Shown: positions 17,214 through 20,284 of the stretch, piece by piece
How the letters are laid out: each line of letters starts with the position of its first letter
How positions within the stretch are numbered: position 1 is the first letter of the stretch
Assembly: GCA_903913215.1 (NCBI GenBank)
Contig: CAIWKE010000036.1
Location: 1-64,000, forward strand
Length of the DNA: 64,000 bases
Direction: 5' to 3'
Origin: an uncultured Holophagaceae bacterium
GTDB taxonomy: Bacteria; Acidobacteriota; Holophagae; Holophagales; Holophagaceae
The notes under the pieces: model-generated
Told to the model about the DNA's origin: nothing
The model's database searches: none
Seen by the model: only the letters and a program-made list of their open reading frames with translations
Translations under genes and position numbers: made by a program

Positions 17214-17510
17214 ATGAAGAAGTTCCTCACCACCGCCTTCCTGTTCACCCTGGCCGCTGTCGCCTTCGCGCAGGGCGCCCCCGTCGCCACCAAGAGCCTC
17301 TTCGAAGGCCAGTTCGTGGCTCACCTCTCCCTCGCCATCGCCGCCGCCGGTTGCGGTCTGGCCCAGGGCAAGGCCGTGGCCGCCGCCGTTGAGGGCGTCG
17401 CCCGCAACCCCCAGGCCGCCGGCAACATCCGCACCACCATGATCATCGGTCTGGCCCTCATCGAAGCCCTCGTGATCTACGTGCTCGTCGCCGCCTTCGC
17501 CATCAAGTAG
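17214..17510 (+). CDS. atpE: ATP synthase F0 subunit c, with N-terminal signal-like extension
   Basis: 98 residues. Two-helix c subunit: helix 1 with GCGLAQGKA, polar loop GVARNPQAAGN, helix 2 with the ion-binding Glu84 in LALIEALVIY. The first about 20 residues (MKKFLTTAFLFTLAAVAFAQ) look like a cleavable signal sequence, absent from the shorter E. coli c subunit. Gln51 aligns with the Na+-ligand Gln of sodium-type rings, but the residue after Glu84 is Ala rather than Ser/Thr, favouring H+. Ribosome site GGAG lies upstream. Confidence 0.93.
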   Translation: MKKFLTTAFLFTLAAVAFAQGAPVATKSLFEGQFVAHLSLAIAAAGCGLAQGKAVAAAVEGVARNPQAAGNIRTTMIIGLALIEALVIYVLVAAFAIK

Positions 17511-17530
17511 GCTTTCCAGGCCGGTTCAGC

Positions 17531-17562
17531 GAGGCGCCCTTTCATGGGCGCCTCGTTTTTTT
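17531..17562 (+). terminator. Intrinsic terminator after atpE
   Basis: GAGGCGCCC (17531-17539), loop TTTCAT, GGGCGCCTC (17546-17554), then G and a T7 run. It closes the F0 operon, confirming that F1 genes are not co-transcribed downstream. Confidence 0.95.
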
Positions 17563-17599: not shown

Positions 17600-18769
17600 A
17601 TGACTCCCCATTCGATGTTCCCCATGCCGCCGGAAGTCACCCAGGTCATCCTGGGGGGCGGCTCTCCCATCGACCTGGATGCCCTGCACGTACATTCGCC
17701 GGGTGAGGCCCTGCACTTCGCCCTGAACTATGGCTACGACATGAGCGTCCCCGTCCAGCGGGCGGCGGTGCTACGGGTCTACGAGGATGCCGTGGACTTT
17801 CTGGAGGGCGTGGTGCTGGAGGGCACGGACCTGCACGTGCCGCTTGAAGTCCGGGATCTGCAAGACCCCCTGGAGCTGCTGGTCTGGGCCTCAGACCGGC
17901 CCCGGAACCACCGGGGACGCTGGTCCTGCGCCATCCTGCGCGTGATGCACACGCTCTTCCACGTGGACCACAACGTCAACCTGCGCTTCCTGCCTGAGAT
18001 CCAGCGGCAGGTCTTCAACCGCTACGATCAGTACCTGGTCTGCGATGAGGGCCGCTGGTGCCTGCGAGGGGCCTACGAGGTGCCGCTGGTGGCCACGGAG
18101 CGCAAGGAGAACAAGGACCGCGTGTCCATGCTCCTCAAGATGCTCCACAAGCCTGAGAATGTGGCGGAGACCATCTACGACCAGATCGGCATCCGCTTCG
18201 TGGCCGAGGACCAGCTGGGTGTGCTCATGGTCATCCGCTTCCTTCTGGACCACCACGTCCTGATGCCCACTCACATCAAGCCCAGCCGCAGCCGCAACCT
18301 CATGATCGACATGGAGGCATTAGCTGCCTGGAGCGAGGCTATGCCTCCTTTCTTCCGAATTCAGGACCTGACTCTCGAAGAACGCCGGGAGCTCAGTCAG
18401 ACGCTGGCTATAAAAACCCCCGGGAAGGATCAGAATCCCTTTTCCAGCAAGGAATATTCGGCGATCCAGTTTACGGCCCGCACCTTGGTGCGCCTCCCCA
18501 GTCCCGCCACCAAGGCACTGGAAACCCTGCAGACTCGGCTGCAGACGATGGGGGATACTGAGCTCTCGGACTTGGTAAGAATCCCTGAGTTGCTCTCCGA
18601 GCAAGAGGAGTTTACTTTCTTCTTCGCACATGAAGTTCAAGTGATGGAACAATCAGGGTTTCAAAGCTCACGTTCAGGTCCAGCATCCCATACCGAGTAC
18701 AAACAACGTCAGCGCGACGCCGCCCGGCGCCGCGTCCTACAGGGAATCCTTCAGGAGGAACCATGTTGA
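17600..18769 (+). CDS. Uncharacterised protein, weakly RelA/SpoT-synthetase-like (TIGR04552-like?)
   Basis: 389 residues from ATG 17600; a TTG at 17570 lies too close to the atpE terminator. Soluble, no signal peptide. A central stretch, MLHKPENVAETIYDQIGIRF followed by a helical segment and PSRSRN, faintly recalls RelA/SpoT nucleotidyltransferase domains (DxxGxRF...), but the catalytic EDD/EIQ-type motifs are not seen. I have a memory of similar proteins filed as TIGR04552 without function. The 3' third has lower GC than its neighbours. The stop overlaps the STAS gene by 7 nt, so it is likely co-translated with the partner-switch proteins. Confidence 0.55.
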   Translation: MTPHSMFPMPPEVTQVILGGGSPIDLDALHVHSPGEALHFALNYGYDMSVPVQRAAVLRVYEDAVDFLEGVVLEGTDLHVPLEVRDLQDPLELLVWASDRPRNHRGRWSCAILRVMHTLFHVDHNVNLRFLPEIQRQVFNRYDQYLVCDEGRWCLRGAYEVPLVATERKENKDRVSMLLKMLHKPENVAETIYDQIGIRFVAEDQLGVLMVIRFLLDHHVLMPTHIKPSRSRNLMIDMEALAAWSEAMPPFFRIQDLTLEERRELSQTLAIKTPGKDQNPFSSKEYSAIQFTARTLVRLPSPATKALETLQTRLQTMGDTELSDLVRIPELLSEQEEFTFFFAHEVQVMEQSGFQSSRSGPASHTEYKQRQRDAARRRVLQGILQEEPC

Positions 18770-19101
18770 ACATCCAGACCCGCCAAGAAGGTGCCGCTTC
18801 AGTGGTGTCCATTCAGGGCAAGGTCAATTTCGAAGTCACCGCGCAGCTGCGGGATGTGATCCGGGAGACGGTGGCCACGGTGCAGCCCAAACTCCTCGTG
18901 ATCAATCTGGAGGGCGTCAGCTTCATCGATTCTTCGGGTCTGGGCCTGCTCGTCGCGGCGCGCAACAGCGTGGACAAGTCGGGCGGCAAACTGCATCTCA
19001 GCTGCCTCCCCGCGCCCGTGAAGAAGACCTTCGACCAGACCAACCTCACCAACTACTTCTCCATCTTCGCCACGGAGCAGGACGCGCTTCGCGGCGCCTG
19101 A
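18763..19101 (+). CDS. STAS-domain anti-sigma factor antagonist (SpoIIAA/RsbV-like)
   Basis: 112 residues, a single STAS domain. GVSFIDSSGLGLLVAARN is the family motif and Ser58 is the expected phosphorylation site, at the SpoIIAA position. Such proteins bind an anti-sigma kinase when dephosphorylated. AGGAGG precedes the ATG. The phosphatase that follows 16 nt downstream is the natural reactivating enzyme. No anti-sigma kinase or sigma factor is adjacent. Confidence 0.9.
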   Translation: MLNIQTRQEGAASVVSIQGKVNFEVTAQLRDVIRETVATVQPKLLVINLEGVSFIDSSGLGLLVAARNSVDKSGGKLHLSCLPAPVKKTFDQTNLTNYFSIFATEQDALRGA

Positions 19102-19117
19102 TCAGGACAGGACGCCC

Positions 19118-20284
19118 ATGGCCAAGGGCTCTGTTCTGGTAGTGGACGATGAAGCACCCATCCGGGACATCCTCAGCTTCTATCTCAAGCGGGCGGGCTA
19201 TCAGGTCCTGACCGCAGCCAATGGCATGGAGGCGCTGGAGGAGATGGGCCGTTCGCGGCCGGATCTCATAATCTCGGATCTCCGCATGCCGGAGATGACC
19301 GGGGATGAGCTCTGCAAGCGGGTGAAGAGTGAGCCCAGCACCCGGGACATCTACTTCATCATCCTCTCGGCCATGGACGGCACCGCCTCGCGCATCGGCG
19401 GCCTATCCCTGGGCGCGGATGACATGATCCCCAAGCCCTTCCATGCCCAGGAAGTGCTGGCCAAGGTGGACTCCAGCTTCCGCCTCATCGAGATGCAGAA
19501 AGAGATCAAGCGCCAGAACCGGGAGCTGACCAGCTTCCAGCAGAAGGTGCAGGAGGAGATGGCCCTGGCCGCTGCCCTCCAGATGGGTTTGCTGCCGAAG
19601 CTGCCAGGCGAGACCCGCGGCGCGAAGTACACCCACCGCTACCTGCCCGCGGCGGGTATCGGCGGCGACATCTACGCCATCATCCCCCTGGCGGATGGCA
19701 GCACAGCCATGATGATCGCTGACGTGAGCGGCCACGGCGTCACCGCCGCACTCATCTCCGCCATGGTGAAGACTTCCTTCGAGAACCAGGCCCGCCTGGG
19801 CGGAGAGCCTCTGGGTTGGGCCCAGGGTATGAACCAGGATCTCTGCCGCTCCACCCTGGCTGAGCAGTTCGCCACGGCCTGGCTGGGCCGCCTGGATCCC
19901 ACCAGCGAGAAGCTGCGCTACGTGGTGGCGGGACACTGCGCCCCCTTGCGCATTGTGGGCGGGGCCCGTGGCGGTCTGCAGCGCTCCGAGGTGCTCCGCG
20001 GCAAGGGCTTCATGCTGGGGCTGGACCCGCAACTACCCTTCCGGGAGAACGAGGCGGAGTTCCTGCCCGGTGACCGTCTGGTGCTCTACACCGATGGCCT
20101 GGTGGAGGTGGAGCGGGAGGACCGGACCATGCTCGAAGAGGCTGGTCTGCGCCGCATCTGCGCCGAACTGCCTGGCGACATTGAAGCCGCCGCCGATGCC
20201 GTCATCGCCCAAACCCGCAGCCATAACCAGCCCGCCCCGTTCCTGGATGACGTGACCCTGGTGATCCTGGATCGCGACAGTTAG
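19118..20284 (+). CDS. Response regulator with PP2C (RsbU/SpoIIE-type) phosphatase output
   Basis: 388 residues. Receiver domain (5-120) with acidic pocket D10/D11, phospho-acceptor D54 in LIISDLRMPEM and Lys in PKPF. A short coiled coil (about 125-150) links to a SpoIIE-type Ser phosphatase with GGDIYAI, IADVSGHG and the C-terminal DDVTLVIL metal ligands. Phosphorylation of the receiver probably switches the phosphatase acting on the neighbouring STAS protein. The stop overlaps the convergent transporter stop. Confidence 0.9.
   Translation: MAKGSVLVVDDEAPIRDILSFYLKRAGYQVLTAANGMEALEEMGRSRPDLIISDLRMPEMTGDELCKRVKSEPSTRDIYFIILSAMDGTASRIGGLSLGADDMIPKPFHAQEVLAKVDSSFRLIEMQKEIKRQNRELTSFQQKVQEEMALAAALQMGLLPKLPGETRGAKYTHRYLPAAGIGGDIYAIIPLADGSTAMMIADVSGHGVTAALISAMVKTSFENQARLGGEPLGWAQGMNQDLCRSTLAEQFATAWLGRLDPTSEKLRYVVAGHCAPLRIVGGARGGLQRSEVLRGKGFMLGLDPQLPFRENEAEFLPGDRLVLYTDGLVEVEREDRTMLEEAGLRRICAELPGDIEAAADAVIAQTRSHNQPAPFLDDVTLVILDRDS

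Follow-up and report, generated by a model that had tools for sequence, protein, structure and literature searches.

What does a protein of 389 amino acids do directly upstream of a STAS-domain protein and a PP2C-type phosphatase, when the anti-sigma kinase expected to complete such a partner switch is missing? This question was raised by a three-gene cluster at positions 17600–20284 of a 64,000-nucleotide stretch (contig CAIWKE010000036.1, positions 1 to 64,000, assembly GCA_903913215.1; hereafter, the window) from the 3.9 Mb genome of an uncultured Holophagaceae bacterium. Here, we propose that the protein is a divergent alarmone-type pyrophosphokinase gated by the STAS/PP2C partner switch, and we give this full model a probability of about 0.5. 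Its parts differ in strength: membership of the protein in the RelA/SpoT homologue (RSH) superfamily by homology is nearly certain, and the protein is probably a catalytically active synthetase. The genes and domains concerned are as follows.

17600..18769, + strand: TIGR04562/TIGR04552 family protein, predicted to be a divergent RelA/SpoT-type synthetase-domain protein, 389 amino acids (NCBIfam, profile-profile comparison, fold, conserved residues)
18763..19101, + strand: STAS-domain protein of the anti-sigma-antagonist type with a DSSG phosphorylation motif, 112 amino acids (PF01740 80.2 bits, TIGR00377 84.5 bits)
19118..20284, + strand: response-regulator receiver and SpoIIE/PP2C phosphatase of RssB-like architecture, 388 amino acids (PF00072 91.1 bits, PF07228 146 bits)
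17630..18028, + strand: predicted N-terminal all-helical domain of the 389-residue protein, residues ~11–143 (structure model 2; conserved across phyla)
18035..18736, + strand: predicted RSH synthetase-like domain of the same protein, residues ~146–379 (profile-profile comparison, PDB profile search, conserved residues, fold alignment)

The first gene starts with an ATG at 17600 and its stop codon ends at 18769. An earlier interpretation made without database searches (the sequence-only reading) had described an overlap of 7 nucleotides between this gene and the STAS gene and a gap of 16 nucleotides before the phosphatase gene; the coordinates of the open reading frames (ORFs), all on the + strand, bore out this operon-like coupling. 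The absence of a kinase was also confirmed for the cluster, and a Pfam scan of eight flanking proteins, one of which matched nothing at all, gave no match to kinase families. The receiver domain of the phosphatase (Response_reg, 91.1 bits) had been omitted from that reading.

To which family does the 389-residue protein belong? Against NCBIfam, it scored 413.4 bits with TIGR04562 (cut-off 140) and 390.8 bits with TIGR04552 (cut-off 125). Judged by these scores, it is not an orphan and represents a full-length member of TIGR04562/TIGR04552, a family without an assigned function. Its sole match in Pfam was PF04607 (RelA_SpoT) with 14.0 bits and an E value of 0.061; the faint RelA/SpoT-like motif of the sequence-only reading is therefore real, though below the 27-bit cut-off in this protein. 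Such a gathering score is best regarded as a detection threshold and not as a biological feature, and the link to RSH proteins was made via relatives. The 182 full-length copies that were collected, in which many genes were represented twice, were reduced to 65 at 85% identity and gave an alignment of 64 rows, in which the window protein replaced the copy from its own locus and a near relative (L019) was left out. All 64 aligned relatives matched both TIGR04562 and TIGR04552, and PF04607 was detected in 50 of the 64 family members at E ≤ 0.1, with a best value of 8e-9. When ten chosen members were scanned singly, three exceeded the 27-bit score (L145, 35.0; L220, 33.9; L133, 33.3). Six-frame searches with PF04607 also gave matches below the cut-off to family genes in genomes G046 (E 7.5e-4), G332 (2.1e-4), and G342 (8.1e-5), and the TIGR04562 hidden Markov model (HMM) matched canonical Rel in two genomes at E ~2e-4, also below its cut-off.

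Comparison of alignments with hhalign gave a clearer result. The 64-row family alignment matched 18 canonical Rel synthetase domains with a probability of 94.6 (E 7e-8, 119 columns), and a smaller 29-row family alignment matched them with a probability of 70.9 (E 3.7e-5); the values for controls with the STAS alignment were 0.3 and 0.1. Furthermore, when the PDB sequences were searched with the 64-row family HMM, the top match was RelSeq (1vj7, E 4.4e-4), which aligned in two collinear blocks, and rows 2–6 were RSH enzymes too (E 0.008–0.07). An earlier profile of 11 rows had yielded unrelated matches only, and no RSH protein, in the PDB.

The alignment from the PDB search paired K172, S176, K180, D194, E345, and Q347 of the window protein with K243, S247, K251, D264, E323, and Q325 of RelSeq. 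These six residues were invariant in all 64 rows, as were D25, N233, N279, and R378. The same alignment paired R199 with RelSeq R269 and H364 with the His of the Rel motif GxAAHWxYK, and hhalign paired Y286 with the Tyr of the G-loop and Q290 with the His of the Rel motif YQSLH. Conservation was high at R199 (Arg 59, Lys 5), Y286 (Tyr 58, Phe 6), H364 (His in 61/64), and K184 (Lys in 63/64). In SaRelP from Staphylococcus aureus, K80, S84, and K88 are reported to bind the ATP phosphates, D107 and E174 Mg, R78 and R112 adenine (R78 by stacking), Y151 guanine, and H190 ribose (PMC5794853). We carried these ligand roles over to K172/S176/K180, D194/E345, R199, and Y286, which are presumed, by alignment, to act in the same way; this transfer is our own. 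For H190, where the spacing differs, such a transfer is doubtful.

Two structural models were compared with known structures: model 1, built from 11 rows, had a predicted local distance difference test (pLDDT) value of 75.5, and model 2, built from 64 rows, had a pLDDT of 92.3 and a predicted template modelling (pTM) score of 0.86. In Foldseek, the top 46 rows for model 1 were all RSH proteins (best E 4e-3), and so were the 50 rows shown for model 2 (best E 1.2e-3), if 3l9d (smu.1046c), whose title is silent on RSH, is counted among them. RelP occupied the first rows. The maximum VIA Z was 10.6 for model 1 (132 residues, root-mean-square deviation 3.2) and 9.6 for model 2 (146 residues, root-mean-square deviation 4.2), and the structural match spanned residues ~122–370. 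The fold comparison with RelA/SpoT that the sequence-only reading had suggested thus revealed a similarity, with RSH enzymes coming first, and its RelA/SpoT idea is upheld on three counts: the sequence profiles, the fold, and the residues of the active site. An identity as an anti-sigma kinase was ruled out for the 389-residue protein, which has no HATPase match and an RSH fold instead. A long Rel with an HD hydrolase was also ruled out, as the N-terminal domain gave hhalign probabilities of 0.54 and 0.17, that is, no match, with the HD hydrolase region of Rel. In the PDB profile search, this domain found no sequence relative among the solved structures (best E 0.75).

We next consider whether the three genes stay together. 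Seventy-eight loci were examined, which came from the 80 top-ranking stretches among 242 that were confirmed. Fifty-five of them (L070–L123 and L138) were of the Holophagaceae type, with at least 54% identity; their titles named Geothrix, Holophagaceae, and Acidobacteria, with single Deltaproteobacteria and Bacillota labels. The synthetase, STAS, and PP2C genes lay on one strand in all 55 loci, and the overlap between the synthetase and STAS genes was exactly 7 nucleotides in 51 of them, a constancy among related loci that is not expected by chance. A cross-group sample of 52 picked loci was also compared; the extent of their flanks varied, down to a few kb in some cases, and STAS genes were sought with a profile derived from Holophagae sequences. 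There, a STAS gene was found directly downstream in 8/8 Holophagaceae-type and 5/5 Acanthopleuribacter-type loci, the latter with synthetases 33–35% identical to that of the window, and a PP2C gene lay beside the family gene in 8/8 Holophagaceae-type loci. The survey of the neighbourhood, which the sequence-only reading had called for, therefore found conservation beyond the genus, and neither part of the outcome named there as decisive against it, a neighbourhood confined to the genus and a lack of fold similarity, was observed. The synthetase-STAS pair is more widespread than the link to PP2C, although it was seen only in Holophagae, and it is probably the older of the two.

The other components are consistent with a partner switch. 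The DSSG motif of the STAS protein was kept in the window and in the 8/8 Holophagaceae-type loci that were aligned. The phosphatase sequence contains GGD, DVSGHG, TDG, and DD, which we take to be the motifs of PP2C/SpoIIE phosphatases, and its best NCBIfam match was RssB of Pseudomonas with 135.8 bits, far under the cut-off of 700 bits. Genome-wide, HATPase_c_2 gave 28 matches, many of them in long open frames; two fell in small open frames (164 and 158 codons), and contigs C12 and C10 were those that carried small frames with a match. The genome has seven STAS matches. On contig C10 (63000–70000), a STAS gene, a HATPase kinase, and a SpoIIE-type phosphatase, the last recognised by eye from the sequence, stand together. 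The organism thus has at least one further switch, complete by its look, and this module is a candidate for cross-talk with the STAS protein of the window.

On this basis, the following mechanism is proposed. The product of 17600–18769 would have an RSH synthetase fold, preceded by its own helical N-terminal domain, and would lack an HD hydrolase; in Holophagae, it would serve as the effector of a partner switch. A histidine kinase reading some signal would act through the receiver domain to activate the PP2C phosphatase, which would then remove the phosphate from the DSSG serine of the STAS protein; an RsbW-type kinase encoded elsewhere would re-phosphorylate it. One phospho-form of the STAS protein would bind the synthetase and turn it either on or off. 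As a result, the signal would determine how much of a (p)ppNpp-type messenger is present, made from GTP/GDP or possibly another nucleotide, and would do so alongside canonical Rel.

There are precedents for such control. The STAS proteins HsbA and BgrV are described as controlling the diguanylate cyclase HsbD and BgrR, respectively, and the DUF1987 protein SiaC as activating SiaD, an activation that is blocked by SiaB phosphorylation (PMC8457831); phosphorylated HsbA is reported to be bound by HsbD (PMC5085249). By analogy, it is plausible that the 389-residue protein is the output of its switch, as the sequence-only reading had raised as an idea. The likeness to HsbA-HsbD, BgrV-BgrR, and SiaC-SiaD lies in a small phospho-protein under phosphatase/kinase control that acts on a messenger synthase. 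Unlike in these diguanylate-cyclase switches, the synthase here would be of RSH type, binding by the STAS protein is predicted, and the kinase lies outside the cluster; moreover, SiaC is a DUF1987 and not a STAS protein.

How is the family distributed? TIGR04552 was detected above the cut-off in 125 of 144 Bdellovibrionota genomes (126 at E ≤ 0.001), 90 of 140 Myxococcota genomes, and 17 of 78 genomes of an Eremiobacterota-type phylum, three of which had three copies. The Eremiobacterota-type paralogues numbered three in G335, G336, and G337 and two in G664; the extra copies gave split matches that skipped positions ~233–268 of the TIGR04552 profile, as if the insert of the window protein had been lost or replaced. 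Of 297 Acidobacteriota genomes, 25 had a match above the cut-off of TIGR04562, and every one of these belongs to the family of the window. Within Holophagae, a protein query matched five of seven genomes of another family and none of nine of a third, and 14 control genomes had no family match. In the tree, one branch (100/100) sets off the Holophagaceae and another (100/100) the Acanthopleuribacter group, whereas support for a grouping of the two is moderate (92/79).

Several records carry labels that sit oddly with their family gene. Genes in loci labelled Deltaproteobacteria (L111) and Bacillota (L123) group with Holophagaceae, and that of a Burkholderiales-labelled locus (L127) aligns closely with a UBP9 record; these are probably mislabelled metagenome-assembled genomes. 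A near full-length member with 30% identity is encoded in the 274 kb 'Microcystis phage MaAM05' (MW495066.1, 123534–124622; L237 8001–9089). Its gene lies near glyS, secF/secDF, acpS, and mtgA, and the record has the appearance of a contig of bacterial origin that was submitted under a phage name.

Several results weigh against the proposed model, and they are considered here together with the other explanations that they suggest. As to the enzyme itself, the window protein stays under the Pfam RelA_SpoT gathering score (14.0 vs 27), and in the single scans of ten chosen members, four were below this score and three were unmatched at E ≤ 0.1. Foldseek gave no row at E ≤ 0.001 and low TM-scores for both models, and the better model 2 gave no higher Z. 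DNA polymerase lambda reached a VIA Z of 7.4 with both models, so the fold alone would equally fit another nucleotidyltransferase. The position of RelSeq R241 and SaRelP R78 is E170 in the window protein and is variable in the family (Glu 21, Ser 11, Pro 10, and Gly 10, among others). Likewise, the position of the YQSLH His, presumably H312 in RelSeq, is Q290 (Gln 44, His 9, Lys 6, Asn 4, Arg 1). Since positions 170 and 290 vary, the family is filed as a divergent RSH branch by homology alone. The loss or variability of these two equivalents would suit a pseudo-enzyme, whose RSH fold senses a nucleotide, for example, (p)ppGpp from Rel, and signals to the STAS protein in place of the kinase, with no catalysis. 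An extra synthetase is indeed not required, because a separate PF04607 protein above the cut-off is present anyway, in 57/60 genomes of the window and its relatives and in 15/15 carriers from other groups, 14 of which have it in Rel-length open frames. However, the presumed Mg ligands D194 and E345 and the presumed phosphate binders K172, S176, and K180 are kept in 64/64 rows across several phyla, which argues that the active site is under selection and makes a protein without catalysis quite improbable. It is also improbable, in our estimate, that the protein is a pyrophosphokinase or nucleotidyltransferase with another acceptor (tRNA or other RNA, as in CapRel/toxSAS, or ADP/ATP, as in Tas1), serving as a housekeeping modification or signal and not for ppGpp. 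The guanine-side residues do differ most (Q290 for H312, and the insert at ~234–279), and CapRel, Tas1, and DNA polymerases were also among the structural matches, but the G-loop Tyr is kept in 58 of 64 rows, with Phe in the other six. A role as a plasmid-borne or defence toxin was judged unlikely: the family is mostly single-copy in Bdellovibrionota and Myxococcota, and no family match was found in a plasmid collection and no match with PADLOC.

The coupling to the switch also has points that weigh against it. No STAS or PP2C gene was found within the flanks of the 39 loci outside Holophagae, which places the switch outside the core function of the family. TIGR04562 was absent from two more Holophagaceae genomes sampled, G143 (100% complete) and the small G222. 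In the Acanthopleuribacter-type loci, PP2C was beside the gene in 0/5, and the STAS motif varied: the forms DSSV, DASM, DASV, GPSV, and DAAG occurred among L132, L144, L061, L130, and L062, with Ser at the second serine position of the motif in 4/5. This drift coincides with the absence of the PP2C gene from the cluster, and the lost serine of L062 suggests a phosphorylation-independent STAS partner there. Finally, the cluster has no kinase. This need not be a problem, given the candidate kinases in trans and the STAS-kinase-PP2C set on another contig. The same kinases would also serve if the trio were a general stress operon, in which the STAS protein and PP2C act on a sigma factor via a kinase in trans and an active alarmone synthetase is merely co-expressed, free of STAS control. 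The family members without STAS neighbours outside Holophagae fit this arrangement, and the STAS and receiver-PP2C pair recalls, by its NCBIfam matches, what we take to be the pairing of RssB and RssC in Pseudomonas. Nevertheless, the 7-nucleotide overlap in 51/55 loci and the synthetase-STAS pair without PP2C in 5/5 Acanthopleuribacter-type loci tie the STAS protein to the synthetase first, and a STAS-kinase-PP2C set is already encoded elsewhere in the genome, on C10. We therefore consider mere co-expression rather unlikely and favour the model of a gated, alarmone-type pyrophosphokinase.

The surroundings of the cluster were also annotated.

17217..17510, + strand: atpE (ATP synthase c subunit), conserved upstream neighbour (PF00137 57.2 bits)
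17528..17557, + strand: intrinsic-terminator-like site, 12-pair stem and T tract, between atpE and the three-gene cluster

Three terminator-like sites were seen in the region vs 1.5 expected, and the stem at 17528–17557 was the longest by far; this strong site splits the cluster from the upstream ATP-synthase genes. No sigma-70-type promoter was found in the region scan around the cluster. In the sampled loci, atpE was upstream in 8/8 Holophagaceae-type and 1/5 Acanthopleuribacter-type loci (L062), and the position of the synthetase-STAS pair after atpE is an unusually stable neighbourhood. Among the 40 neighbour clusters listed, the only ones to span the groups were that of the family and that of a reading frame in antisense. 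The best cluster within Bdellovibrionota was present in 7/14 loci and the best within Myxococcota in 7/12 loci, the latter antisense to the family gene. In one Bdellovibrionota-type locus (L131), an ORF of 860 amino acids with a receiver domain immediately adjoins the family gene and has the same orientation.

Compared with known systems, the protein resembles the synthetase domain of Rel/RelA/SpoT (RelSeq 1vj7) in its predicted fold, in the Mg and phosphate ligand positions that are invariant in the family, and in the collinear motifs K-xxx-S-xxx-K, DxxxxR, YxxxQ/H, and ExQ...GxxxHxxYK. It differs from that domain in its own helical N-terminal domain, an insert of ~45 residues, and the equivalents of R241 and H312, which are not kept. 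Unlike long RSH proteins, it has no HD hydrolase match, and its 389 residues leave no room for TGS/ACT. It shares with RelP/RelQ a synthetase domain without a hydrolase, and its ATP/Mg-binding positions match those of SaRelP except R78; whereas RelP/RelQ have ~200 amino acids, it has 389 and an extra N-terminal domain, and its family occurs in Holophagae, Myxococcota, Bdellovibrionota, and some other groups. The two-protein architecture of STAS and receiver-PP2C is the same as that of Pseudomonas RssB/RssC, although the phosphatase is far under the RssB cut-off and an RSH-fold gene is coupled upstream here.

By profiles, fold, and conserved residues, TIGR04562/TIGR04552 is placed here in the RSH superfamily. 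The 2011 survey of RSH proteins, described as starting from PF04607 and keeping sequences at <1e-5 for phylogeny, distinguished 30 subgroups, 12 of them small alarmone synthetases, and includes the delta-proteobacterial groups bdRel and divRel (PMC3153485). Surveys that use the cut-off of the RelA_SpoT profile would miss many members of the present family, as seven of the ten scanned score under it. In the open-licence PubMed Central literature, the name TIGR04562 was not found, and TIGR04552 was found only as a row of a mutation table (PMC9888234). Searches of the same literature for small alarmone synthetase subfamilies in myxobacteria and for a ppGpp synthetase in Bdellovibrio gave no match, and a narrow search did not find an RSH enzyme together with a STAS/PP2C switch. 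The table row concerns Bdellovibrio sp. NC01, in which a 1-base-pair deletion in DOE51_RS08710 (TIGR04552 family) arose in one of six lines and was among 20 mutations at >75% frequency after long coculture with less susceptible prey; in the main text of that source, the tag and the family name occur once each, in the mutation table (PMC9888234). This deletion may fit a growth-restraining enzyme, with loss of the RSH-like gene being selected.

Taken more broadly, we tentatively suggest that TIGR04552/TIGR04562 could be an overlooked RSH branch: a mostly single-copy second alarmone-type synthetase beside Rel in most sampled Bdellovibrionota and Myxococcota and in Holophagae. It would have its own regulatory N-terminal domain, its product might not be ppGpp, and in Holophagae it would have been captured by a STAS/PP2C switch. 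If the proposed model is true, this would be, to our knowledge and within one narrow literature search, the first STAS/PP2C switch gating an RSH-type enzyme, and the enzyme class of the stringent response would join sigma factors and diguanylate cyclases among the known targets of partner switches. The 'TIGR04552 family protein' of most sampled Myxococcota and Bdellovibrionota, the phylum of the predatory bdellovibrios, would then become a testable alarmone synthetase or sensor.

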